DNA of 64,000 nucleotides from Rubritalea profundi. Its GTDB lineage: Bacteria; Verrucomicrobiota; Verrucomicrobiia; Verrucomicrobiales; Akkermansiaceae. This document shows positions 8,167-64,000 of the stretch, piece after piece (position 1 is the first letter of the stretch; each line of letters begins with the position of its first letter). Below the pieces are notes generated by a model. It worked only from the letters and a program-made list of their open reading frames with translations, did no database searches and was not told where the DNA came from. The DNA lies in the NCBI RefSeq assembly GCF_002954445.1, contig NZ_MQWA01000001.1, forward strand, positions 1,258,421 to 1,322,420. Direction: 5' to 3'. The position numbers and the translations under genes are program-made.

Positions 8167-9616
8167 CTACTTTTTACGCGGGCGGATTGGCCCCCAAAAG
8201 CTCGCCTCCTCGATCAACTGCGCTTCCTTCTTCAGAAGTTGCTCACGTAGGGTACTCACTAGGTCGAGCTTTTCAGGTGCGCGATCAAAGCGCTCTGAAT
8301 TGTCTTGTTCGACTTGGAAAAGTAAGGGCGTATCTTCGAACGCTTTAAATCCATAGTTGTCACCACGCTGAGAACCTATGCGTATATGTAACTTCCACGG
8401 TCCCACACGAAGAGCCGATGGTTTGTTATCACTATAAGAATAGAGAAACTCAAAAGGTGGGACTGCTTGTTTCGTACTCATCAGATACGGGCTAACATCG
8501 CGTCCATCAATACTTCGATCTTTAGGCAATTCACCACCGACGATACTCACCAATGTTGGCAACACATCCAGAGTACTCATCGGGTTCTGAATCACAGTGT
8601 TAGGCTTGATCATTCCAGGCCAATAGAAAATCCCAGGAACTCGGTGTCCCCCTTCCCAGGTCGACCCTTTACCATCGCGGAATGGCATAGCGTATCCGAC
8701 GTGCATCCGCGCCTCGCCATACTTGGTCTTTTCCGACTCACGGTACTTCACCCATGGTCCATTATCTGATGAGAAAATGATAAGGGTATTCTTACTGATT
8801 CCCACTTTTTCGACAGCATCCAACACCCGACCTACTGAATCATCGATCTCGGCCATCACATCACCTAACAATCCTCTACGAGAAACTCCTTTAAACTTAT
8901 CGCTGGCGAACAAGCCGAGGTGTGGTTGATTGTGTACTATATAGGCGAAGAAAGGTTTCTCTTTGTTCTTTTTGATGAACTCTACGACAGCCTCGGTGTA
9001 GCGGCCCGTGAGTGACTCAGACGCCTTGATGTCTGATGGGAGGTTCTTAGCTATTACCGAGTAGCCTTTGATCGGATCATCCCCCTCTGGATCACTCTTC
9101 AGCAACATCGCACTACCATAGTCGTGAGAGACATTTGTCCCAATCCAACTCTCAAATCCGTGGGCTAAAGGCAGCGCATCGGAAGACATATTATTTCCCT
9201 TATTCGGCGTGCCTAGGTGCCACTTTCCAAACATCCCAGTCGTGTAGCCCTGTGATTGCAGAGCCTCTGCAATAGTGGTCTCTTTGGTATGAGTGTGTCG
9301 TGCCGCACTAGGCCCAATCACCTAGGATCCTAAACCTGACCGCGCAGGGTATCTCCCCGTGAGTAAGCTATACCGCGAGGCACTACAGGCTGCAGTGGCC
9401 ACATAAAATTGAGTACAATTCGCACCACCATGCGCTATTTTCGAGATGTTCGGAGTCGACAGAGTAGGATTACCATTATGCGCTTAGTCTCCGTAGCCAC
9501 TGTCATCGACAAAGAAAACGATAAACATTCGGTTTATCAGTCGCTTCACGCGCCTAAATTGTAGGAACGGCAAGCAAGGATGAGGCAGCCAGCGCGATGG
9601 GAAGATGGAGTTTCAT
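8167..9616 (-). pseudogene. S1-family sulfatase pseudogene
   Basis: Reading down from ATG 9616, a signal peptide (MKLHLPIALAASSLLAVP) is followed by an in-frame stop, then a frameshift before FVDDSGYGD, a second stop directly after it, and a third before VIGPSAARH. From about 9321 the frame is open for 384 residues. Sulfatase landmarks remain: metal ligands in DDSGYGD, the formylglycine site CSASR followed by LLTGRYP, FGKWHLG, SSDNGP and the C-terminal domain. An intact enzyme would be exported and would remove sulfate from polysaccharides or other esters. With three stops and a frameshift before or within the active-site region, no active product is expected. Confidence 0.88.
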
Positions 9617-13524: not shown

Positions 13525-15953
13525 TTATTCCCGGGTTTTAGTGATATCCAAATTATAAAGTGTGTTAACGAGGACGGTCCATGAGGACAACTTAGCCTTC
13601 GATCCGGCATCTGGTAGTTCGAGTCCCTCGCAGAGCTTTTCGGCCAGAGCACTATTCGCTAGATAAGCGACTTCGAGATCCTTCAATAGTTTGATCAATG
13701 TCTCACCCTCTAAAGCGTCGGGGAGTTTTGAGGTTACCGTTTCGTAAACGAAATCGACCTTGCTTGCTCTGAGAGTTCCTTATTAGCGAGAGCGTCCGCG
13801 GCAAGCTTGCGTGCGGCCTTCATGTACTCGGTCTCATTCAGCAGTAACAGTGCCTGGGTGGAGGTATTTGTGCGTTCACGGCGAGAGATACAGGCATCAC
13901 GGATGGGTGAGTTGAGAATCGTCATCTGCGGAGGCGGTATCGCCCTTTTCCAGAAGGTATAGACACTGCGGCGATAGATGGACGCACCCGTATCGGGTTT
14001 GAAGCTCTCATTGGTCATGGACACGGCCCTCCAGAGCCCATCGGGCTGCGGTGGCTTAACGCTTCTGCCATACATCTCTTTCGAGAGCAGGCCGCTGGTC
14101 ACTAGAATCTGGTCACGGATCATTTCAGCATCCATCCTGAAGCGCGATCCGCGAGAGAGTAGTCGATTTTCCTGATCTTTCCTGAATTGTTCAGGAGTGG
14201 CGACTGACGACTGCCTGTAAGTTTTCGACATCACCATTTGTTTTACCAGCGCTTTGATGTCCCATCCTGATTTGACAAAAGAAACGGCTAGGTGATCTAG
14301 CAGCTCTGGGTGGCTGGGGACTTCGCCTTGGGTACCGAGATCCTCGGACGTCTTGACGAGTCCCACTCCGAAGAATTGTTGCCAGAAGCGGTTCACGGCA
14401 ACTCGCGCGGTCAGCGGGTGCTTGGGATCGACGAACCATTCGGCTAAGTCCAAGCGTGAAGCGACTTTGCCAGCCATCTTAAGCGGAGGGAGAAAACCGG
14501 GAGTCCCACGCTGCACTTGCTCACCTGGAGCATCATACTCGCCACGGACTCTGACGAAAGTAGGTCGAATTTCCTCCCGCTCTTTCGACACCATCGCCTT
14601 TGAAATCGATCTATCAAAGTCGTTTCGCAGCTTGCGCACGCTTCCTAATTTGGCCCTAGCAGCCTGGGTCTTTTTCCCCAATGCCGCTTTCTCCGCTGGT
14701 ACTTTCGCCTTTCCTGCTGCGGTCTTGGCGGCATTCAATTCCTTGGATAGGCTCGCCATCTGTAGTTCAAAATCAGCAAGCTGCTGCTTTTTCTCTGGAC
14801 TAGCCATAATGATGAAAGGAGCCTGGAGACCATCCCTTTCACCTCCCTTGGTTTCGGGCTCTGCATCGAAATTGTTGAAGAAGGCATATAGGGAATAAAA
14901 ATCCTTTTGAGTAATCGGATCGTACTTGTGATCGTGGCACTGAGCGCACTGCACGGTCAGTCCCATGAACGCCGTTCCAACCGCGGTGACCCGGTCCAGC
15001 ACATTCTTGAAGTGGCTTTCCTCTGGTAGGGCGGTGCCCTTGTCAATAATCAGATGGAGCCGATTGAATCCCGATGCCACCATAGCATCATTTCCAGCGT
15101 CCGGAATCAAATCACCCGCTAGCTGGTAGCGTAGAAAGTCGTTATAGCCGAGGTTGTCGTTGAAGGCGCGAATCACCCAGTCCCGATACGCAAAGTTGTT
15201 TCGATAGAAATCTTTGTGCATGCCATTGCTGTCGGCAAAACGCACAAGATCCAGCCAGTAACGAGTCATATGTTCGCCATACCCTGGCCGAGCAATAAGA
15301 TCATCAACAAGTGACTCATAGGCGTTTGAGCGGTCGTCAGCGACGAAAGCCTGCACCTCTTCAAGAGTCGGGGGCAGTCCAGTAAGGTCAAAACTCAATC
15401 GGCGAATCAAGGTCCGTTTGTCCGCTTCGGTTGATGGTTTGATCCCCACTTTTTCCAGTCGATGAAGAATATGAGAATCAATAGCTTGGTCACTCCAGTC
15501 ACGTTTCTTCACCTCGGGAGTCTCCGGTGCTTGCGGAGGAACGAACGCCCAGAACTTCTCGTATTTTGCCCCCTGCAGAATCCAGCGCTTGACGATCTCT
15601 CGCTCACTTTGGGAAAGCACTTTTTTATGCGAATCTGCCGGCGGCATCACATCATCCTCATCGGTAGTAATGATCCTCTGCCACAGCTCGCTCTTTTTAA
15701 GAGATTTAGGCACTAGGGCTGTAGAGCCTTTGTGTGTGCGATAAGCACCTTCCTTGCCATCGGACAGATCCAGCCGAAGGTGAGCTTCGCGGTGGTTGGC
15801 ATCAAAACCGTGGCAGGCAAAGCAACGGTCAGAAAGTATCGGTCTGACATCGAGGTTGAAGGAAACCTCGTCCCCCGCTTGTGAGACTGTGAGCAGTTGA
15901 GGAAGCACACCAAAGATAGCAACGAGGAAGGAAAATCTCTGGGAGTTATTCAT
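13525..15953 (-). CDS. Planctomycete-type cytochrome C / DUF1549 / DUF1553 protein, one frameshift
   Basis: A signal peptide is followed by a haem-binding CFACH motif (PSCyt1 domain, about 43-47), then DUF1549 (RRLSFDLTGLPPTLEEV), a second CAQCH site with DHKYDPITQKDFY, a coiled linker and DUF1553 (HPLTARVAVNRFWQQFFG). The uninterrupted frame ends at 13734 in ISFTKR. The neighbouring frame supplies the expected end, VYETVTSKLPD to WTVLVNTLYNLDITKTRE, stopping at 13525. One extra G at the GG opposite 13758-13759 joins them into 809 aa. It is exported and haem-binding; its substrate is unknown. It forms an operon with the DUF1501 gene. Confidence 0.85.
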
Positions 15954-21383: not shown

Positions 21384-23273
21384 ATGAAACTCAGTCTAGA
21401 AAATATCTGTAGCAAACAATTGTTATGGCTCATGGCATCGACAATCGTTGCGATGCCTATATTGGAAGCTCGCGCTGGTGGCCGAGGTGGCGGCGGTGGC
21501 GGCGGCCGAGGCAGCGGTGGCGGTGGCGGTGGCGGTGGACGTAGTTCCTCAGCTAAGTCATCACATCGTTCTAGTAGTCATCGAACTCCGATGACTGGAT
21601 CGAGGGCGAAGCCTGCTTCAAGACCATCTACAAAGTCTACTAGGCCAAGCTCTAGACCTTCTTCTCGTCCGAGTACACGACCTTCGACAAAACCTTCAAC
21701 CCGGCCGAGCACCCGCCCCTCGACAAAACCCTCGACTCGTCCAAGTACGAGACCGTCGACAAAACCTTCAACCCGTCCAAGTAGCAGGCCTTCCCAGCCG
21801 TCTAAAAGACCATCAATGAAGCCTGGAGACTTGAAGTACGCAAAGCCTGCGGTTGGTTTCGATGGACGCCCTATGACGCGTCCTGGTCAAGGTGGTGCAG
21901 CAACGCGTCCAGCAACTCGCCCAGCGACTCGCCCTGGACAGGGTGGTGCTGGAGTACGACCTGGAACTGGTAGGCCGAGCACTGGTCGTCCCATTGCCAG
22001 ACCGCCAATTACTGGTCGCCCCGGAAAACCGGGTAGACCTGGTGGTGGCTTGGCTGGAGGAAATCGCCCCGGCGTTGGTCACCGTCCCGGTGGAGGCAAC
22101 GTCAACATAGGAAACAAGGTTGATGTCAATTTCTCACGCAATGTGAACTGGTCAGTCAACTCAAACCACTGGGGCGGACGCCCATGGTGGGGTGCTGGCT
22201 CACACCATTCGTGGCACCATGGTCATTGGCATTACGGTTGGCACCGTAGACCCTATTACTATCGTCCAGGCCGTGTGATTGCTTGGGGACTAGTCGGATG
22301 GGGAATTGGAAGCCTTATATTCGACTGTGGTTATCATAGTTACTATAACCCGTACCCCACACAGACCGTGGTGGTGTACAACAATGGTGGCAGTAGCAAT
22401 GTGAATTACGCTGAGCCAGTCACAAGCTCTGCCGAAGCAGCGATCGAGCAGCGATCGGGCATGTCGGAGAAGGAAAGTGACACGCTTGCTAAAAAAGCGA
22501 GCGACTCCTTTGATGCCGCGGTGAAGTCTTTCAAGGAAAAAGACTATCTCAGTGCTCTTAAGAAAACCGATGAAGCAATCAGCTATGACCCTGGTGAAAC
22601 GGTGCAACATGAGTTCCGAGCTCTTTGTTTGTTCGCTCTGCAGAAATATAGCGATGCGGCCTCAGTTCTGAACTCCGTGCTATCATCCAATCCAGGATGG
22701 GGCTGGGAAACGATGATAGGCTTGTACGATTCATCTGAGACCTACACTGCTCAACTTCGCGCATTGGAATCCTACGCAAATAAAAATGCCAAAGCCGCGG
22801 ACGCTCAGTTCTTGTTAGGCTACCACTACATGACTGAGGGTCACATGAAGGAAGCGCAGGCAGCATTTGCTAAGTGTGTTGAGCTTCAGCCTCGTGATCA
22901 GGTTGCTAACGAATTACTCCGCCTTACTAAGAATTCATCTACCGGTGATTCCCAAGGAGAGTCGGACCCATCTCAGAAGGAATACACACCACCACCATTG
23001 GATCAAATTCAAGGGACGTGGACAGCTAAGAGTGGAGCTGGATCTATCAAGCTTACGATTGGGAAGGATGACAAGTTTACTTGGACGTATAATGACGGCA
23101 AGAAACCCTTCAAAATGGCAGGCGAAGCAAGCATGGATGACGGCTTGTTAGTCCTTGGTGGCGACGAAAGTCAAATTGTCGCAGCCATCGAAATGAAGGA
23201 TAAAAAGACCCTGAACTTCGTCATTGCAGGCGGCCCAGATGGTGACCCTGGCCTCAACTTCATAAAATCATAG
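21384..23273 (+). CDS. Secreted Gly-rich / RPST-repeat protein with TPR-like and lipocalin-like regions
   Basis: The order in this 629-aa protein is: signal peptide; a poly-Gly tract (about 31-52); an Arg/Pro/Ser/Thr region with about eight RPST/KPST units (about 70-145); a second Pro/Gly/Arg-rich stretch; a His/Trp/Tyr-rich hydrophobic segment (SHHSWHHGHWHYGWHRRPYYYRP and VIAWGLVGWGIGSLIF); a TPR-like helical region (about 360-510); and a C-terminal strand-rich domain starting IQGTWTAKSGAGSIKL, like DUF-type lipocalin domains. The layout resembles planctomycete secreted or cell-wall proteins. The repeat DNA is nearly identical between units, so length variation is likely. Confidence 0.75.
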   Translation: MKLSLENICSKQLLWLMASTIVAMPILEARAGGRGGGGGGGRGSGGGGGGGGRSSSAKSSHRSSSHRTPMTGSRAKPASRPSTKSTRPSSRPSSRPSTRPSTKPSTRPSTRPSTKPSTRPSTRPSTKPSTRPSSRPSQPSKRPSMKPGDLKYAKPAVGFDGRPMTRPGQGGAATRPATRPATRPGQGGAGVRPGTGRPSTGRPIARPPITGRPGKPGRPGGGLAGGNRPGVGHRPGGGNVNIGNKVDVNFSRNVNWSVNSNHWGGRPWWGAGSHHSWHHGHWHYGWHRRPYYYRPGRVIAWGLVGWGIGSLIFDCGYHSYYNPYPTQTVVVYNNGGSSNVNYAEPVTSSAEAAIEQRSGMSEKESDTLAKKASDSFDAAVKSFKEKDYLSALKKTDEAISYDPGETVQHEFRALCLFALQKYSDAASVLNSVLSSNPGWGWETMIGLYDSSETYTAQLRALESYANKNAKAADAQFLLGYHYMTEGHMKEAQAAFAKCVELQPRDQVANELLRLTKNSSTGDSQGESDPSQKEYTPPPLDQIQGTWTAKSGAGSIKLTIGKDDKFTWTYNDGKKPFKMAGEASMDDGLLVLGGDESQIVAAIEMKDKKTLNFVIAGGPDGDPGLNFIKS

Positions 23274-53032: not shown

Positions 53033-53308
53033 CCCCACCGCGCTCGTCAAGCCGAGCCTGCCACAGAGCTGAGTCGAGCCGCAGCAGTCCAGATCCGGGA
53101 CAATGAAACGAGTTCTTACCACGAATAACACCAATCGCACGAATGGGGAGTCGCTTCGCTCCAATGAATAATTAGCAATGAGTAATTAATAATTCTGAAC
53201 CGTCTGAACACTGCTATCTGAACACTTTCTCCTTTCTCCTTTCTCCACACTTTCCCCATTTTCGCGGTAAAGATCACTGCAACGGAATTCTTAATTGGAG
53301 CGCAGCGA
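53033..53308. repeat. Composite repeat region (left flank of the exosortase operon)
   Basis: It contains in order: a 26-base word (53033-53058, ccccaccgcgctcgtcaagc...) found identically at 60281-60306; a 42-base word (53103-53144) whose inverted copy at 60007-60048 matches at 40 of 42 bases; a period-7 stretch of 12 units (53166-53249) that includes a 30-base word (53185-53214) with an inverted copy at 59933-59962 (29 of 30); and 'ttcgcggtaa' plus 'ggagcgcagcgact' words also seen at 59.8-60 kb. No gene is present. Confidence 0.85.
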
Positions 53309-54802
53309 CTACATTCCTTTGCCAAAGAGTATCATATAGCAAGTTTTCACCACGATTGCTACGTCTAGAGATAAAGAATAGCGCCGGACATAGTAGAGGT
53401 CGTAGTTGAGCTTTTCTAGGGTATCCTCGTCATTCGCGCCGTAGGAATAATTGACCTGAGCCCAGCCAGTGATTCCAGGTTTCACCGCATGGCGAAAGTG
53501 GTAGAACGGAAAGCGCTCCTCGTAGCCCTTCACTAGGTCCACCCACTCGGCGCGCGGACCAATCAGGCTGAGGTCGCCGATCAAGACATTCCAGAGCTGT
53601 GGCATCTCATCGAGCCGCGTCTTGCGGATAAATGCCCCGATAGACGTCAACCGATCATCATTCACGCTGGTGTATTTTGCGCCTTTTTCTGAGCCCACCC
53701 GCATCGAACGAAATTTAAAAATCATGAAGGGCTTTTCACGGTGGCCCGTGCGCACTTGGCTAAAGATAATCGGCCCAGCGCTGGTCAACTTTACCGCAAT
53801 CGCAGTAGCGATCAACAACGGCGAGGCAAACACGAAACCAAGCAAGGCAGCCGCGATATCAATCAAGCGCTTTGCTCGGTCGTAGCTGACACTTCGGTTG
53901 AGTCGAAATCCATCCATCATCGGCCAGTTCATCGTCAACTGACTTGGTGGCTCGATCCGCAGCGTGTTCGCTAAGTAAGTCTCGTAGGTCGCAATCTTAT
54001 GGCCGAGAAACAAGGCTGAGACCATTCTACGGCTAAATTCCTCAGGGATACGCTCCACCTCGGTGGCCACCACATATTGCTCCACATACTTGCCTCGGAT
54101 CGACGACTGGAATGTCACATTCTCGATCGCTTCCACCAAGGGCGAGGTCGAGTCGCCAGCAATCAAACGCGTTCCCACCAGCTCTGGCCTGAAAGTCACC
54201 ACAATGAACTCATGCCCCCCGCCCCGCTTTACCAGGCGCGTGTAGAGATCTCTCCCTCTTCTCCCTGCGCCGATGATACACACCGCATTACCACGCTCAT
54301 ATCTCGCCTGAACGCGGGAAAGAAAGTACCGGTAGAAGATAGAAACCGCGGGAAAAAGCACCAAGGCCTCACCCACCACCAATCGTGGCGATTTGAGGTT
54401 AACTCCGTAGGAAACGATCGAGTAAATAAGACAGAAAACGACCACAGCAACACCAATCGAAGCAATAATATGCTCTGACACAAACCGCGCTTGCCGCTTA
54501 TCTGTCGCATAATTATAGCCACCAATCATATACACGCCGATGATACTCGGCAACATGATTGCGAAAAGTACTCGGCGACTGATCGAGTGAGGAAAATCCA
54601 CACCTGAGTGGAGGTAAATCGTCAGAGCAAAGATCGCACTGACCAGAAAAATATCAGTCAACAACAAAACCAAAGGGTAAAGACGGATCACCAACTTACG
54701 CTTCCAGTGGGTCCGTTCTTCGACTTCCTCACCAGTGACAGCGAAGATCGAACCGCTAAGCGAGGAGGTCTTCTCGAGGTTTCGCTTCGTACTATTTTCC
54801 AT
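53309..54802 (-). CDS. Polyprenyl glycosylphosphotransferase (EPS initiation)
   Basis: This enzyme transfers a sugar-1-phosphate to undecaprenyl phosphate to start a repeat unit. The N-terminal half has four to five membrane helices (about 30-165), then a CoA-binding-like cytoplasmic region. The C-terminal bacterial sugar transferase domain shows KRLIDIAAALLGF, KFRSMRVGSEKG, LDEMPQLWNVLIGDLSLIGPR and VKPGITGWAQVNYSYG, the standard catalytic signatures. The ATG at 54802 (497 aa) is preferred because the extension to 54835 overlaps the upstream gene. It lies 4 bases after the TPR gene and is the last gene of a four-gene operon. The exact sugar is unknown. Confidence 0.92.
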   Translation of the reverse strand: MENSTKRNLEKTSSLSGSIFAVTGEEVEERTHWKRKLVIRLYPLVLLLTDIFLVSAIFALTIYLHSGVDFPHSISRRVLFAIMLPSIIGVYMIGGYNYATDKRQARFVSEHIIASIGVAVVVFCLIYSIVSYGVNLKSPRLVVGEALVLFPAVSIFYRYFLSRVQARYERGNAVCIIGAGRRGRDLYTRLVKRGGGHEFIVVTFRPELVGTRLIAGDSTSPLVEAIENVTFQSSIRGKYVEQYVVATEVERIPEEFSRRMVSALFLGHKIATYETYLANTLRIEPPSQLTMNWPMMDGFRLNRSVSYDRAKRLIDIAAALLGFVFASPLLIATAIAVKLTSAGPIIFSQVRTGHREKPFMIFKFRSMRVGSEKGAKYTSVNDDRLTSIGAFIRKTRLDEMPQLWNVLIGDLSLIGPRAEWVDLVKGYEERFPFYHFRHAVKPGITGWAQVNYSYGANDEDTLEKLNYDLYYVRRYSLSLDVAIVVKTCYMILFGKGM

Positions 54803-58185: not shown

Positions 58186-59655
58186 TTAGTGAGCCGCCAG
58201 AGCCCTGTGCTCGTCGGCGATAATCTTTTGGCCAAGCGCGTCATAGGCCAACCCTAACATCTTATGCAAGTCCTTGTTCGGGCCATCACTCAGCGCGAGC
58301 GCTTGCTCTAGGGCTTGCAGCGCTTCATACCAACGACCCTCAGCCGCCCGCACCTCCCCCAAAGTAAACAACAAAGAATAATCCTCCGCTTGGCTTAATT
58401 TCTTGTTGCCAATCAAGCGCACCAAAGCGCCTTCAAGCTCAGAAAAATCTGGACCATCCTCTTGCAACTGAAAGCCAACCCAGGCAGCCACCAAACTTGG
58501 ATCCTCAGCATTGAGATCGTGCGCCCGTATCATATGCGCCTCCGCAGAGGCTGGATTGAGCGCAGCTAGAAAAACATGCAGGTCTGCTGCCGCCAGTGGA
58601 TTGCTTTCCTCCAGCTGCTGGCTCACCTCGCCAATGCCTTGCTGCACCCTCTCCTTCACTTCTGGATAACGCTCCAGCAACAACTTCAGTGCCGCGACAA
58701 TCTCCGATCGCCCGGGTTGGAGGCTGTACGCCTTGAGCAAAAACTCACAAGCTCGGCTCGCCTCAAAATTTTCCTCGTCCAACAAATCGATCGCCTTGAA
58801 ATACCATTGACTCGACTTCAAGCTCTTCACTAGCCCTTCATTTTGCTCACCAAAATCACGCTCAAACTTGCCGACCGCCGACTCGGCCAGATCGCCCTGC
58901 TCGAGCACCATGGCGTAGAGAATGTAGTCAATCCGCACTCCTATGTCACCACGCTTACTGCCAGTCACCTCACGCCCCAAAGTCGCAAATTTGTGCCAGC
59001 ACGATTCCTCTAGACCTAAATTATCACCCGCATAAGCCAAAAGGTTCGCCAGCTGAATGCTCAGGTCGATCTGAGAGTCCTCTGCAACACTCTGGTGGAT
59101 CACTGCTATTCCCGCATTCCGTTGATTCTGCGCTAGCAACACCTCAGCCAACAAAACCGTGGCATCTACCAATGCTGGGTCCAGCGCCACCGCTGACTCC
59201 AAATGACGTTGGCAGCGCGCTGTCAAATTTCCTTTATCCAGCAAAACCGGGCTCACCAAATGCTTGCTCCCTGATGCATCCAAAGGATAGACACTTAAAA
59301 AGCCGAACCCCTTACCCGCCAATAAATCCTCAGCCATCCACAAATGCGCCTTAGCATTTCCCTGCGGCGTCTTTGATGCCAGATTCAAAGGTGCCAAACG
59401 CTGCATCACTGCGCGCCCCTTGGCGAATTCACCTTCATCCAACAGCTCAACACCACCCTCGAAACCTAAATTAGACACCTCCTGCGCCAGCTCGGACTGG
59501 CGCGCATCGCCGAAGTCCACTTGCTCGGTCTTCTGATTGGTCATGAGCGCGTAATAAACCGCCCCCCAAAGCACAACAACCACCACCAACGCGATCCAAA
59601 GGGCACGCCCGTAGTAGCTCAACCATTTTTTTAATTTTCGGAGGGGTTTCGCCAT
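58186..59655 (-). CDS. Membrane-anchored TPR protein, first gene of the exosortase operon
   Basis: An N-terminal membrane helix (WIALVVVVVLWGAVYYALM, about 20-38) is followed by a TPR array: QRHLESAVALDPALVDATVLLAEVLL, ACEFLLKAYSLQPGRSEIVAALKLLL and WYEALQALEQALALSDGPNKDLHKML. It is likely anchored in the inner membrane with the array outside. It begins the minus-strand operon (this gene, exosortase, TPR, glycosylphosphotransferase), 17 bases upstream of the exosortase. The repeat-filled spacer 59656-60491 contains its promoter region, though no clear promoter can be named. 489 aa. Confidence 0.78.
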   Translation of the reverse strand: MAKPLRKLKKWLSYYGRALWIALVVVVVLWGAVYYALMTNQKTEQVDFGDARQSELAQEVSNLGFEGGVELLDEGEFAKGRAVMQRLAPLNLASKTPQGNAKAHLWMAEDLLAGKGFGFLSVYPLDASGSKHLVSPVLLDKGNLTARCQRHLESAVALDPALVDATVLLAEVLLAQNQRNAGIAVIHQSVAEDSQIDLSIQLANLLAYAGDNLGLEESCWHKFATLGREVTGSKRGDIGVRIDYILYAMVLEQGDLAESAVGKFERDFGEQNEGLVKSLKSSQWYFKAIDLLDEENFEASRACEFLLKAYSLQPGRSEIVAALKLLLERYPEVKERVQQGIGEVSQQLEESNPLAAADLHVFLAALNPASAEAHMIRAHDLNAEDPSLVAAWVGFQLQEDGPDFSELEGALVRLIGNKKLSQAEDYSLLFTLGEVRAAEGRWYEALQALEQALALSDGPNKDLHKMLGLAYDALGQKIIADEHRALAAH

Positions 59656-60491
59656 AACTACCCATCAGCCTGCCCCTGTAATCTCTAACATTCAAGTAAT
59701 ACGTGAGGAAGATTTTAGATTAAAAATTAAAGAGGGAAGATGGAAGATGGAAGATGGAAGAGGGCCTGCTATATAAAGCGACTCTACCACGAATAACACC
59801 AATTCCACGAATCTTGCTCGGATAATGAAATCTCTCTACCGCGAAAAAGACGAAAGAAGCTAAAGTTGCCAGTCCGATGAAGCGGTAGAAGGAGAAAGGA
59901 GAGAGGGGGGAGTGAGAGGAGTGAGGAGTGGGGCAGTGTTCAGACGGTCCAGAATTATTAATTATTAATTGGAGCGCAGCGACTAAGGGGCAACCCTCAA
60001 CAACCCATTCGTGCGATTGGTGTGATTCGTGGTAAAAACTCGTTTCATCCTGCCGGCCCTTTAACATCTTTCGTGGTAGAGCCCGTTTCATCTAGCTAGC
60101 CCCCTTGACTATTGACCCATGACCCATGACTGCCCGCAGGGCTCCTCTACCCTTTCCCCTTATTCCCCCCGCTCCATCGTCCTAGTTCTGGAGTGCGCGT
60201 GCTCGACACCGCTCTGGTGGATGGATGTGGCTCGACACATGGGGTGCGGAGCTGAGTAGCCTGGGCTAGAAACGATGCAACCCCACCGCGCTCGTCAAGC
60301 CGAGCCAGCCGCAAAGCGGTGTCGAGCCACACGCACTCCAAACCACTGCAACGGAATCCGTTAAATCAGCGTAATCCGCGCCAAGAACTCGTTTCATCTA
60401 GCTGGCCCATAAAACGAACACTGAACTCTGCCAACTGAACACTTCTACTCAGCAAGCTTGCTCCACTTTCTAAAAAGTGCATCTTCCTGAC
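59656..60491. repeat. Composite repeat region (right flank of the exosortase operon)
   Basis: This 836-bp spacer holds: a period-7 stretch (59708-59762, gaagatg units); direct copies of left-flank words at 59786-59812 (accacgaataacaccaat...); 'taccgcgaaaaagacgaaag' at 59836; a purine-rich period-7 stretch around 59886-59932; the inverted 30-base word (59933-59962) and inverted 42-base word (60007-60048) described for 53033-53308; a long inverted repeat (60188-60340); the 26-base word at 60281-60306; and 'actgcaacggaatcc' near 60352. There is no supported gene. Confidence 0.85.
60188..60340. repeat. Long inverted repeat (26-bp arms)
   Basis: 60188-60213 (ctggagtgcgcg...accgct) is the near-perfect reverse complement of 60315-60340 (agcggtgtcgagcc...). 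The arms differ at only about three positions and enclose ~100 bases. It could fold into a large hairpin. Confidence 0.75.
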
Positions 60492-61565
60492 ATGTCACAA
60501 ACCTTCGCACTCATCCTCGCTGGCGGCAGCGGCACACGCTTCTGGCCACTCTCGCGCGACGCCAAGCCTAAACAACTCCTCGACCTATTCGGCGACACCA
60601 CCTTACTGAACAAAACCATTTCTAGGCTCGAAGGACTAATCCCCAAGGAGAACATCCTCATCCTCACCAACCAGCTTCAACTTGAAGCAGTCAGAGAGGT
60701 TGCTCATGAACTTCCCGCTGAGAATATTTTTGCTGAACCAGCAAAACGCGACACCGCGCCAGCCGTAGCGCTAGGTGTCGGCCTGGTTGCAGCCCGTGAC
60801 CCACAGGCAACTATGGTGATCCTCCCCGCCGACCAATTAATCAGCGACATCGAGAACTTTCACAGCGTGCTTTCCGATGCTATCACTACAGCGCAACAAT
60901 CTAATTCACTAGTAACGATCGGCATCAAACCCACTTGGCCGTGCCCATCATTCGGATACGTAGAACGCGGTGGCGTTAGCCCACTTGCCCCTAGTGGACT
61001 CAAAAACGTCCCACACGAAGTAACCTGTTTCCGAGAAAAGCCGGCTCCAGAGCTTGCGGCTCAATTCCTAGAGCAAGGGAACTTCGCATGGAATGCCGGA
61101 ATGTTCATCTGGTCAATTGCGACAGTCATCAAAGAGCTCACCACGCATAACCCTGAATTGGCGAACTTCATCTCTGAACTTCAAAACTCCGACGATATCA
61201 ACAAGACGGTGGCTGAGAAATTTGACAAGCTCACACCCACTTCTATCGACTACGCTCTCATGGAGAAAGCTACCAGCGTGCTCAACATCGAAGCCAATTT
61301 TGACTGGGACGACGTGGGATCATGGATCTCAGTTTCCAAGTACCTCGATTCAACAGAAAGCAATAACAAGACAAACAGCCCACTCGTAGAAATCGATAGT
61401 AGCAACAACATTGTTTTTACTGAGTCAAAAAACACTCAAGTCGCCCTGCTTGGTGTCGATGACCTCATCGTCGTACAAACCGCCGACTCCATCCTTGTCG
61501 CCCACCGCGACAAAGCAGACGACATCAAAAAAATCGTCACCAAGCTTCCGAAAGAGCTAACGTGA
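60492..61565 (+). CDS. manC: Mannose-1-phosphate guanylyltransferase
   Basis: ManC makes GDP-mannose from mannose-1-phosphate and GTP, feeding polysaccharide synthesis. The start LILAGGSGTRFWPLSRDAKPKQ (nucleotide-binding signature, about 7-28) and AGMFIWSIATVIKEL plus FDWDDVGSWISVSKYL are conserved. At 357 aa it has only the transferase domain, with no fused isomerase (cupin) half. The ATG at 60492 is preferred over the GTG at 60477. A period-7 array starts 20 bases after its stop. With fcl and gmd it forms a GDP-mannose/GDP-fucose supply set. Confidence 0.93.
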   Translation: MSQTFALILAGGSGTRFWPLSRDAKPKQLLDLFGDTTLLNKTISRLEGLIPKENILILTNQLQLEAVREVAHELPAENIFAEPAKRDTAPAVALGVGLVAARDPQATMVILPADQLISDIENFHSVLSDAITTAQQSNSLVTIGIKPTWPCPSFGYVERGGVSPLAPSGLKNVPHEVTCFREKPAPELAAQFLEQGNFAWNAGMFIWSIATVIKELTTHNPELANFISELQNSDDINKTVAEKFDKLTPTSIDYALMEKATSVLNIEANFDWDDVGSWISVSKYLDSTESNNKTNSPLVEIDSSNNIVFTESKNTQVALLGVDDLIVVQTADSILVAHRDKADDIKKIVTKLPKELT

Positions 61566-61585
61566 AACTCTTCCCGGATGGCTAA

Positions 61586-61725
61586 TGACAGATGACAGAT
61601 GACAGATGGCGGATGATGGATGATGGATGATGGATGATGGATGATGTCTCTTAAATCTTAAATCCGACATCGTGAATCAGCTTATCAGCAATCAGCTATC
61701 AGCTATCAGCTATCAGCAATCACAA
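61586..61725. repeat. Heptanucleotide array between manC and fcl
   Basis: A period-7 run stays in register: three TGACAGA units, TGGCGGA, four TGATGGA, then degenerate units (TCTTAAA twice, others), then ATCAGCA/ATCAGCT five times (61684-61718). The last unit, ATCACAA (61719-61725), contains the fcl stop codon (TCA on the plus strand at 61720-61722). Confidence 0.85.
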
Positions 61726-62742
61726 GCGCAGCTCCGCTTGACTGCTTAAAAACCATTGATAAGTCTTCTCGAGGCCATGTTCGAGGCTCAAGGAATATTG
61801 CCAGCCGAGGTCCTTGAGTCGGCTAACATCCATGAGCTTCCTTGGTGTCCCGTCTGGCTTAGTCGCATCGAAGGCTAGTTCACCGTCAAATCCGACCACT
61901 CGCTGCATCGTCTCTGCGAGCTCGCGAATCGTGCAATCCACACCTGTACCTACGTTAATATGCGACATCATCGGATCCGTCTGCTTGTCGTAGACGTCTT
62001 TAGAAAGATTCATCACATGCACACTTGCTGCAGCCATGTCGTCTACATAGAGAAATTCTCGCATCGGCGTACCTGATCCCCACACCACAACATTGGCGGC
62101 ATCGTTCAATTTTGCCTCATGGAAGCGTCTCATCATCGCGGGGATTACGTGACTGTTCTCTGGGTGGAAGTTGTCATTCTCTCCGTAGAGATTTGTCGGC
62201 ATCACACTGCGGTAATCCACTCCATATTGTCTATTATATGATTCACAGAGCTTTATGCCCGCAATCTTAGCAACAGCGTACGGCTCATTGGTTGGCTCTA
62301 AATGGCCGTCAAGAAGAGCCGTTTCAACCATCGGTTGTTCAGCAAGCTTTGGGTAAATGCAACTAGAACCAAGGAAAAGCAATTGCTTCACTCCTGACTT
62401 GTAGGCTTGATGGATAATATTACACTCCATCATCAAATTCTCATAAATGAAGTCCGCCGGGTATGTATTGTTCGCGTGAATTCCACCAACCTTTGCGGCA
62501 GCTAGATACACTTGATCAATCTTCTCTTCTGCAAAAAACTCTGCAACTGCTGCTTGTGAACTAAGGTCCAACTCAGCACGCGTGCGCGTCACTAGCTCAC
62601 AATTACCAGCTTCCAACAACTGCCTCGCAATCGCCGATCCCACCATCCCCTTATGCCCTGCTATGAATACACGCTTAGCGTGTGATGACTGATTGCTGAT
62701 TGCTGATTGCTGACTACTCGGATCTAACTGATTCTTTTCCAT
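61720..62742 (-). CDS. fcl: GDP-L-fucose synthase
   Basis: This SDR-type epimerase/reductase converts GDP-4-keto-6-deoxymannose to GDP-fucose. The Rossmann motif is GHKGMVGSA (29-37) after RVFIA; the active site is YAVAK with EPTNEP just before it. [18 protein letters not shown] closes the protein. 340 aa fits the family. The first ~21 residues ([20 protein letters not shown]) lie on a heptanucleotide repeat (62683-62717) and are not family sequence. Repeat-number change there would shift the frame. The four-helix-bundle gene lies between this and gmd. Confidence 0.95.
62683..62717. repeat. Heptanucleotide repeat inside the 5' end of fcl
   Basis: The plus strand reads TGATGAC, three perfect TGATTGC units, then TGACTAC (five units in register). 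It encodes part of the extra N-terminus of the fcl product. As 7 is not a multiple of 3, gain or loss of one unit breaks the reading frame from ATG 62742. Confidence 0.8.
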
Positions 62743-62810
62743 TTCTACTATTTGATTATTCTAAAATTTGATACCCGCTATTTACCGCTAATGGCTGAAT
62801 AGCTTCACTC

Positions 62811-62917
62811 TGATGATTGATGATTGATGGCTGATTTAAGATTTAAGACATTCATCTTCCGTCTTCCGTCTTCCGTCTTCCGTCTTCCGTCTTCCGTCTT
62901 CCGTCTTCCATCTTCCA
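62811..62917. repeat. Heptanucleotide array ending at the four-helix-bundle gene's stop
   Basis: TGATGAT twice, TGATGGC and related units lead into seven TCTTCCG and two TCTTCCA (62855-62917). The array ends exactly at the TCA (62918-62920) that is the stop codon of the minus-strand gene. Confidence 0.88.
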
Positions 62918-63268
62918 TCATTTCCTTAGATATTTGGCGAAGCCGGCTAGCTGTTTGGAGATGCTTTCACAGTGCGCACAGCGTAATTCAGCAATTGAAG
63001 GCTCAACGAAACCTAATTTTACAGCTAAATAGTACATACTCCGCACTTCGCCGCACGAGCCTTTTGCTATGTCCAGAAAACGGGCGAAATCAGCTGGAGT
63101 TTGGCGCTCAGCGCCTTCCGCGACATTATTCGAGACTGACACTGCCGCGCGCTTTATCTGGTCACAAAATCCATAGTCACGAACCTCTTTAAAGTCAGAG
63201 TACACAGAGAACGCAATATCTTGCGCCATTTGCCAAACCTCCATTTCTTCGAATCGTTTACCACTCAT
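62918..63268 (-). CDS. Four-helix-bundle protein (S23/IVP, TIGR02436-like)
   Basis: The 116-aa protein shows the family pattern: KRFEEMEVWQMAQDIAFSVY, IKRAAVSVSNNVAEGAERQT, FARFLDIAKGSCGEVRSMYYLAVKLG and a C-terminal helix. Relatives are encoded in intervening sequences of 23S rRNA and also as free genes in polysaccharide loci. Their function is unknown beyond a pentameric helical bundle. Here it interrupts the fcl-gmd pair, with period-7 arrays on both sides reaching to its stop codon and to 2 bases from its start codon. Confidence 0.9.
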   Translation of the reverse strand: MSGKRFEEMEVWQMAQDIAFSVYSDFKEVRDYGFCDQIKRAAVSVSNNVAEGAERQTPADFARFLDIAKGSCGEVRSMYYLAVKLGFVEPSIAELRCAHCESISKQLAGFAKYLRK

Positions 63269-63270
63269 TT

Positions 63271-63459
63271 TGTTGATTATTGATGTCAGATCTAAGATTA
63301 AAGATATTTGATTTAAGATGTCTGATCTAAGATTAAAGATGTTTGATGTTTGATTTAAAATGTCAGATTTAAGATCCAGGATTTAAGAGTCTTCCCTCTT
63401 CCCTCTTCCCTCTTCCCTCTTCCCTCTTCCCTCTTCCCTCTTCCATCTTCCATCTTCCA
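63271..63459. repeat. 189-bp heptanucleotide array
   Basis: Twenty-seven consecutive 7-base units stay in register. The first part has units ending in GAT (TGTTGAT, TATTGAT, GTCAGAT, CTAAGAT, TAAAGAT, ATTTGAT, TTAAGAT, and so on). The last ten are seven TCTTCCC and three TCTTCCA (63390-63459). It fills all but 15 bases of the spacer between the four-helix gene start (63268) and the gmd stop (63473). Confidence 0.9.
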
Positions 63460-63472
63460 TCAAAAATGACAC

Positions 63473-64000
63473 TTACTCAGTCGTGACACTCACCACGTGC
63501 CCATGAGCTTTCAATAAAGTATGAGCCTTAGCCTGCTGGACGTCATTTTGAACCATTTCAGCACACATCTCTTCGACTGTGATTTCAGGTACCCATCCGA
63601 GCTTTTCTTTGGCGTAGCTAGGGTCACCGAGGAGAGTTTCCACTTCCGCTGGTCGGAAATAGCGTGGATCCACTTTGACTATCACCTCACCCACTTTAAC
63701 GCCTGGTGCTTTCTCGCGATCGACATTGGTAACAGTTGCAACTTCATTTAGACCTTCACCTGTGAATTCAAGCTCGATACCGGCTTCTTTGGCTGACATC
63801 TTTACGAATGCACGCACAGAAATTTGCTTACCTGTCGCAATCACAAAGTCTTCTGGAGTGTCTTGCTGAAGCATCATCCACTGCATCCGCACGTAGTCCT
63901 TGGCATGGCCCCAGTCGCGTAGCGCGTCCATGTTTCCTAGGTAGAGGCATTGCTCTAATCCTTGAGAAATGTTGGCAACTGCACGGGTGATCTTACGCGT
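63473..64000 (-). CDS. gmd: GDP-mannose 4,6-dehydratase, C-terminal part
   Basis: The frame is open to the window edge, so the N-terminal half lies outside. Visible are [23 protein letters not shown] (the signature of the family), [17 protein letters not shown] and [29 protein letters not shown]. Gmd makes GDP-4-keto-6-deoxymannose, the substrate of fcl. The NAD-binding motif and catalytic Tyr-Lys are not in the window. It is co-directional with the four-helix gene and fcl. Confidence 0.95.

Follow-up and report, generated by a model that had tools for sequence, protein, structure and literature searches.

Inverted heptad arrays around four-helix-bundle IVP/S23 genes: a putative repeat-recognizing element in Rubritalea profundi and other bacteria

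The window (the whole 64,000-nt stretch of Rubritalea profundi DNA that was analyzed) carried near its right end a gene of the four-helix-bundle IVP/S23 family. This gene was placed between fcl and gmd, with all three genes on the minus strand, and it was bordered on either side by period-7 DNA. The features were as follows:

53151-53312 (array 53163-53193), no strand assigned: element of AAT heptads that lacks a gene and has GTCGCTKCGCTCC in inverted orientation at its outer ends, of the same anchor class as IVP locus L002
59710-59761, plus strand: gene-less GATGGAA array
61577-61646 facing 61684-61722, no strand assigned: gene-less inverted pair, (GATNNNN) units facing (NNNNATC) units and reaching the fcl stop codon, with nine GAT and six ATC anchors and a lag-7 identity of 0.74
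61720-62742, minus strand: fcl (GDP-L-fucose synthase; NF047922), the downstream host gene
62683-62713, plus strand: GATTGCT heptads translated in-frame in the 5' end of fcl, encoding an N-terminal stretch of 12 residues
62812-62853, plus strand: outer part of the downstream array, (GATNNNN)n heptads in the order GATGATT (twice), GATGGCT, GATTTAA (twice), and GACATTC
62854-62919, minus strand: heptads in reverse complement (GAYGGAA when read on the minus strand) that extend into the IVP stop codon, seven TCTTCCG plus two TCTTCCA, 98% matches by TRF
62918-63268, minus strand: four-helix-bundle (IVP/S23) gene, 116 aa (PF05635/TIGR02436; AF2 and Foldseek)
63275-63386, plus strand: 16 (GATNNNN) heptads (one with AAT) upstream of the IVP start, from the unit list
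63389-63461, minus strand: reverse-complement heptads forming the outer part of the upstream array and adjoining gmd, seven TCTTCCC plus three TCTTCCA
63473-64000, continuing past the window, minus strand: gmd (GDP-mannose 4,6-dehydratase; TIGR01472), the upstream host gene

The IVP product passed the curated cut-offs of PF05635 (E = 1.9e-29; 102.4 versus 33.8 bits) and TIGR02436 (E = 2.6e-27; 95.2 versus 24 bits). Lag-7 identity was (i) 0.84 in the left array (62811-62917), with 0.14 to 0.42 at other lags except 14, and (ii) 0.72 in the right array (63271-63459), with 0.25 to 0.33 at other lags except 14. These scores and identities confirmed what an earlier note had read from the letters, namely a TIGR02436-like gene inside period-7 DNA on both sides; its further statements that the gene interrupts the fcl-gmd pair and that one array meets the stop codon (which fell within the first heptad) were also borne out. 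The counts of TCTTCC units given there were correct, but the TCTTCC words were not the defining feature, which was instead an inverted layout with a protein-matched anchor (see below). Both arrays were composed of one heptad type, GAY plus four free bases: the second half of the left flank read, on the plus strand, GTCTTCC seven times and ATCTTCC, the reverse complement of GAY heptads, and the right flank had sixteen GATNNNN-type units followed by the reverse complement (CCCTCTT)n/(CCATCTT)n. The TCTTCC units were the same GAY-NNNN heptad read on the opposite strand, and TCTTCC was rejected as the core motif, the anchor being GAY-NNNN and varying among loci. Since (GATNNNN)n preceded (NNNNATC)n, its reverse complement, on each flank, each flank constituted a head-to-head pair.

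Period 7 was prominent in the window, with seven arrays against none at periods 4, 5, 8, 10, and 11. A 123-aa open reading frame at 59720-60091 on the minus strand consisted mostly of translated repeat DNA (HESHQSHE..PSSIFHLPSSLFNF) and was likely no gene, and the N-terminal ~20 residues of fcl (62683-62742) may be an array-derived extension or the result of a wrong start. The AAT-heptad element with GTCGCTKCGCTCC ends belonged to a dispersed gene-less family (window 53151-53312, L190:14256, and L200:2399), and a GGTGGCGGC-type repeat plus 3.3 copies of a 36-bp unit (TRF) lay at 21477-21783. No rRNA was matched at 59000-64000, where fcl and gmd rather than 23S rRNA flanked the IVP gene; no known RNA family was a credible match, PADLOC and PHROGs gave no match to a defense or phage family, and the window contained no reverse transcriptase match, the reverse transcriptase matches of the source genome (G000) lying more than 1.3 Mb away.

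The AlphaFold (AF2) model of the window IVP was a confident four-helix bundle (pLDDT 97.1). Its nearest solved structures by Foldseek were 2gsc and 2rld (five chains each) and Avd of diversity-generating retroelements (DGRs), with a TM score of 0.77 to 4dwl and about 0.77 to 0.79 across the Avd structures (4dwl and 8ube). Judged from these relatives, the IVP is probably pentameric, the number of chains in a deposit being no proof of the biological assembly. PF05635, the sole domain matched in the window IVP gene, is not known to include a catalytic domain, and the Y1 tyrosine transposase domain (PF01797) was absent from it.

The array comparison was applied to 185 IVP genes out of 189 loci collected by similarity-ranked searches (hence no random sample of the family), together with 367 control open reading frames from the same loci. 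An inverted array was scored when the left 150 nt contained at least three copies of one 3-mer spaced by k and the right 150 nt contained its reverse complement likewise, with one consecutive miss tolerated, the best of 64 words taken, and IVP genes and controls treated alike. Inverted arrays were specific for IVP genes: at period 7 or 8 they were present on both flanks of 118 of the 185 IVP genes (64%) versus 17 of the 367 controls (5%; odds ratio 36, Fisher p ~2e-52). Outside Verrucomicrobiota (Bacteroidota, Omnitrophota, Chloroflexota, NC10, Patescibacteria, and others), the figures for period 7 or 8 were 79% of 28 IVP genes versus 4% of 91 controls. The period scan gave 56% versus 3% at k = 7 and 9% versus 1% at k = 8, with other spacings in the IVP flanks at the background level of 1% to 3%. 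A direct arrangement was found at 17% of IVP genes, against 56% for the inverted one, and was rejected as the defining layout. Exact left/right inverted matches of at least 12 nt, the longest being 33 nt, occurred at 58 of 185 IVP genes and 5 of 367 controls. About one-third of the IVP genes did not pass by these strict criteria; L005 of the source genome, with 4 and 2 anchors, was among them. The gene-plus-repeat cassette suspected in the earlier note was thereby supported, its association holding across several phyla, and the period-7 DNA it had proposed to look for beside other TIGR02436 genes was there; gene and arrays were consistently associated, although gene-less arrays were also common where a genome had an IVP elsewhere.

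Each unit comprised a 3-base anchor plus four variable bases, and each arm, when extended by two-of-three anchor matches, had a median and a mode of five units on both sides. Arms of five heptads beside a putative ring of five subunits would suggest one anchor per subunit. Left-arm anchors (n = 126) were mainly purine-rich (AGT 21, AGA 9, AAG 9, GTA 8, AAT 8, and others), and the median spacing was 24 nt from the end of the left arm to the start codon and 14 nt from the stop codon to the right arm. The element lay mostly in the sense orientation: of 119 loci, 79 had both neighbors co-directional with the IVP gene, and at 10 both neighbors ran the opposite way. As RNA or single-stranded DNA the arms can fold back on each other (mean duplex -25 kcal/mol), and unit-by-unit complementarity was barely above that expected from a shared heptad profile (median z -0.30), which gave marginal support to a precise RNA stem as a conserved feature; since selection for exact pairing was weak, recognition of the heptad profile is preferred over that of a precise stem. 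By eye, six loci (L010, L026, L044, L047, L050, and L051) had a further pair of head-to-head arrays upstream of the IVP gene, and there the left arm could pair with the near or the far right arm. In L048, the mini-palindrome GTCGCTTCGCGAC stood immediately beyond both arms, and some other members were flanked by similar GC-rich palindromes.

The source genome harbored five IVP genes, and all five had inverted array flanks by eye, each with a different anchor: GAT (L004, the window locus), AAT (L002), GAA (L003), GTC (L005), and a period-8 AGTT type (L001). L001 was also located between fcl and gmd, in a second cluster (neighbors read from the flanking sequence), and its protein was at most 32% identical to every other IVP of the genome; the fcl-gmd site was thus used twice by unrelated members. 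In a 400-kb sample of this genome, gene-less arrays fell into the classes AAT, GAT, GAA, and period-8 type, matching resident IVP loci, and into AGT and TTG, for neither of which a resident IVP was found. Inverted TTGGNNN/CCAATNN elements (CCAACAAGGAATATCCAA) were dispersed at L190:4192-4345 and at L205:429-565, 8548-8835, and 14409-14999, and no resident IVP with their anchor was found.

The anchor followed the version of the protein and not the genomic location. Among loci with unrelated neighbors (homology being judged roughly, from 5-residue words in common), motif similarity was (i) 0.78 for proteins 65% to 95% identical (8 pairs), (ii) 0.585 for those 55% to 65% identical (75 pairs), and (iii) 0.48 for those 45% to 55% identical (239 pairs), each versus 0.41 permuted (0/5000). 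The match extended across phyla, as with GTTTtCa in Chloroflexi L077 and GTTntCa in Nealsonbacteria L072. In the protein alignment, two positions of the last helix (helix 4) that are separated by a single helical turn, 102 and 106, were associated with the anchor more strongly than overall identity accounts for (0.149 and 0.117, respectively; 95% null maximum 0.113). They are candidate specificity residues, an assignment that is only suggestive because the null models the tree incompletely. S44, E51, G52, S71, and E74 were invariant in 65 IVPs across phyla.

These data bear on an origin by polymerase slippage, in which period-7 DNA would expand as microsatellites and share tolerated intergenic sites with IVP genes. 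Uniform runs such as the seven GTCTTCC units resemble slippage products, and slippage has been proposed for heptanucleotides, described in work cited in PMC4679880 as the most frequent long repeats of most bacterial genomes. The inverted rather than direct arrangement, the 3% level of the control reading frames of the same loci, and the tracking of the protein by the anchor at unrelated loci all speak against it; this account is already disfavored and appears very improbable.

Array counts were made genome-wide for runs of six RRT anchors at period 7 (RRT anchors only, overlapping registers counted, and shared ancestry ignored in the tests). Gene and arrays co-occurred: RRT arrays were present in 57 of 69 IVP-bearing versus 7 of 27 IVP-less genomes of the phylum (p = 3e-7), and their abundance followed the IVP count over the 96 genomes (Spearman 0.58, p = 7e-10, uncorrected for shared ancestry), with no association for a period-10 control (p = 0.62; Spearman -0.04). 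Among 58 closer relatives, the median was 36 arrays in IVP-bearing versus 1 in IVP-less genomes (p = 0.004; period-9 control p = 0.93). Arrays also occurred in G013, G143, and G118, for which no IVP was found, with many in the first two, where they possibly go back to a lost gene or another cause.

Filled and empty sites were observed at the metK-ahcY gap, which was empty and 35 to 111 nt long in most relatives versus 310 to 543 nt long and filled with an IVP gene plus arms in others, congeners including both states. In G023, this gap contained a 111-nt gene-less element with AGTTTTC arms nearly identical to the arms of IVP locus L030 in the same genome (inverted arms exact over 32 nt); the two shared the outer ends AGTTTG/CAAACT. 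No target-site duplications or exact junctions were resolved, the intergenic spacers among congeners being too diverged. For 95% of 62 IVPs from 16 genomes, the nearest IVP was in another genome rather than in its own (median best identity 0.64 to other genomes versus 0.37 within), which fits repeated acquisition and not local duplication.

These distributions also bear on a cassette for RNA processing only, inherited and immobile, whose arms would pair in the operon transcript and be cut by RNase III so that the IVP controls its own mRNA. Such a cassette would account for the sense-orientation bias and for arms able to pair, and RNase III cuts the Coxiella burnetii 23S intervening sequence (IVS) at the first GACAGAT heptamer (PMC4990558). 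It leaves aside the array matches at a distance from the gene, which number from dozens to hundreds per genome, and the sites filled in some congeners and empty in others, both of which call for a spreading step, and it sits poorly with the weak stem complementarity beyond the heptad profile; on balance we consider it unlikely. With mirrored arrays matched to the protein version, gene and flanking repeats look instead like one spreading element, putatively mobile or selfish.

If the element spreads, the arrays could be owned by another mobile system, a Y1/RAYT transposase or a reverse transcriptase, with the IVP as cargo or accessory. Y1_Tnp was matched in 52 of 58 relatives, reverse transcriptase counts correlated with IVP counts, and the fold resembles the DGR accessory protein Avd. 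Y1_Tnp, being near-universal in the genome set, cannot discriminate, and G037 had two IVPs and no Y1_Tnp match; IVP-rich genomes had no reverse transcriptase match (G055 with nine IVPs, G040 with seven, and G024 with five), and the arrays agreed with the IVP's own phylogeny. Neither enzyme was retained as an obligate partner, and ownership by such a system is quite unlikely. Avd shares the four-helix-bundle fold and differs from the IVP in acting together with a reverse transcriptase and TR/VR repeats, with many IVP-rich genomes lacking a reverse transcriptase match.

The spreading element combining IVP gene and arrays is best read as organized like RAYT-REP and related to the 23S rRNA intervening sequences. 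A RAYT gene invariably lies between two REPs in inverted orientation (PMC2817692); the likeness consists in a single gene between inverted repeats, many gene-less inverted copies, and repeats specific to the resident protein, and inverted repeat copies both flanked the IVP gene and occurred dispersed without it. RAYT-REP has a Y1 tyrosine transposase and a GTAG-headed GC-rich palindrome, whereas the IVP element has a four-helix bundle without known catalysis and tandem heptads.

The Coxiella 23S IVS, described in PMC4990558 as a selfish element in 23S rRNA helix 45, shares with the IVP element the protein family, complementary ends around the reading frame, and tandem GACAGAT heptamers directly before the S23 frame, where RNase III cuts. 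It differs in that the heptamers in that account stand at one end of one locus, inside rRNA, and that the account does not connect them with inverted arrays at other sites or with an anchor specific to the protein. The window element had the S23/IVP frame and stem-capable complementary ends and not the 23S rRNA location. Insertions in the rRNA of CPR bacteria also contain IVP reading frames (PMC11270868).

Orphan heptamers were reported as proposed regulator sites in two cases: (i) TAACTGA arrays in Beggiatoaceae, Cyanobacteria, and Bacteroidetes, whose binder is given as unknown (PMC4679880), and (ii) class 3 sites of Geobacter metallireducens, five strand-switching heptamers MTYCTGA (PMC2700814). 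Both are tandem and mostly intergenic; TCAGTTA, the reverse complement of TAACTGA, has the AGT anchor, and the Geobacter sites share the five units and the strand-switching layout. The likeness is one by description, and the two accounts, in their accessible parts, make no mention of IVP proteins. A link between IVP proteins and heptad arrays in general was not found in the open-access literature as far as it was accessible, and earlier work may exist.

We favor, with a probability of roughly 0.6, a widespread small element in which the IVP gene is combined with inverted heptad arrays and the protein recognizes its own arrays and aids their upkeep or spread. We infer the following course: the element, an IVP gene with two inverted arms of about five anchored heptads each, would ride in operons of many bacteria; the putative pentameric bundle would recognize (bind) its own arrays in a register that pairs each subunit with one heptad anchor, its substrate being the arms folded back as an RNA hairpin or single-stranded DNA; this action would maintain and mobilize the element and gene-less array pairs of the same anchor, cutting and joining presumably being done by a host enzyme; and the intervening sequences of 23S rRNA that carry an S23 frame would represent members inserted into rRNA. 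A bolder version, to which we give tentative and somewhat lesser credence, is a new element class with a protein-repeat recognition code, in which a pentameric IVP would read its own 3-base anchor at a 7-base pitch, move or amplify matching arrays, and be a main source of heptanucleotide repeats in bacterial genomes, with 23S rRNA intervening sequences as a special case.

We know of no function established for the S23/IVP family over decades. Under the favored reading, this family and the heptamer repeats of scattered genomes, which have no known binder or cause, would each gain a testable partner, and open reading frame calls consisting of translated heptads alone would be explained. The 23S rRNA intervening sequences would be placed in a wider class, and a protein of ~115 residues with 7-base units would offer a simple system for the study of repeat recognition. 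IVP elements may be the reason why 7-base repeats are common in bacterial genomes.
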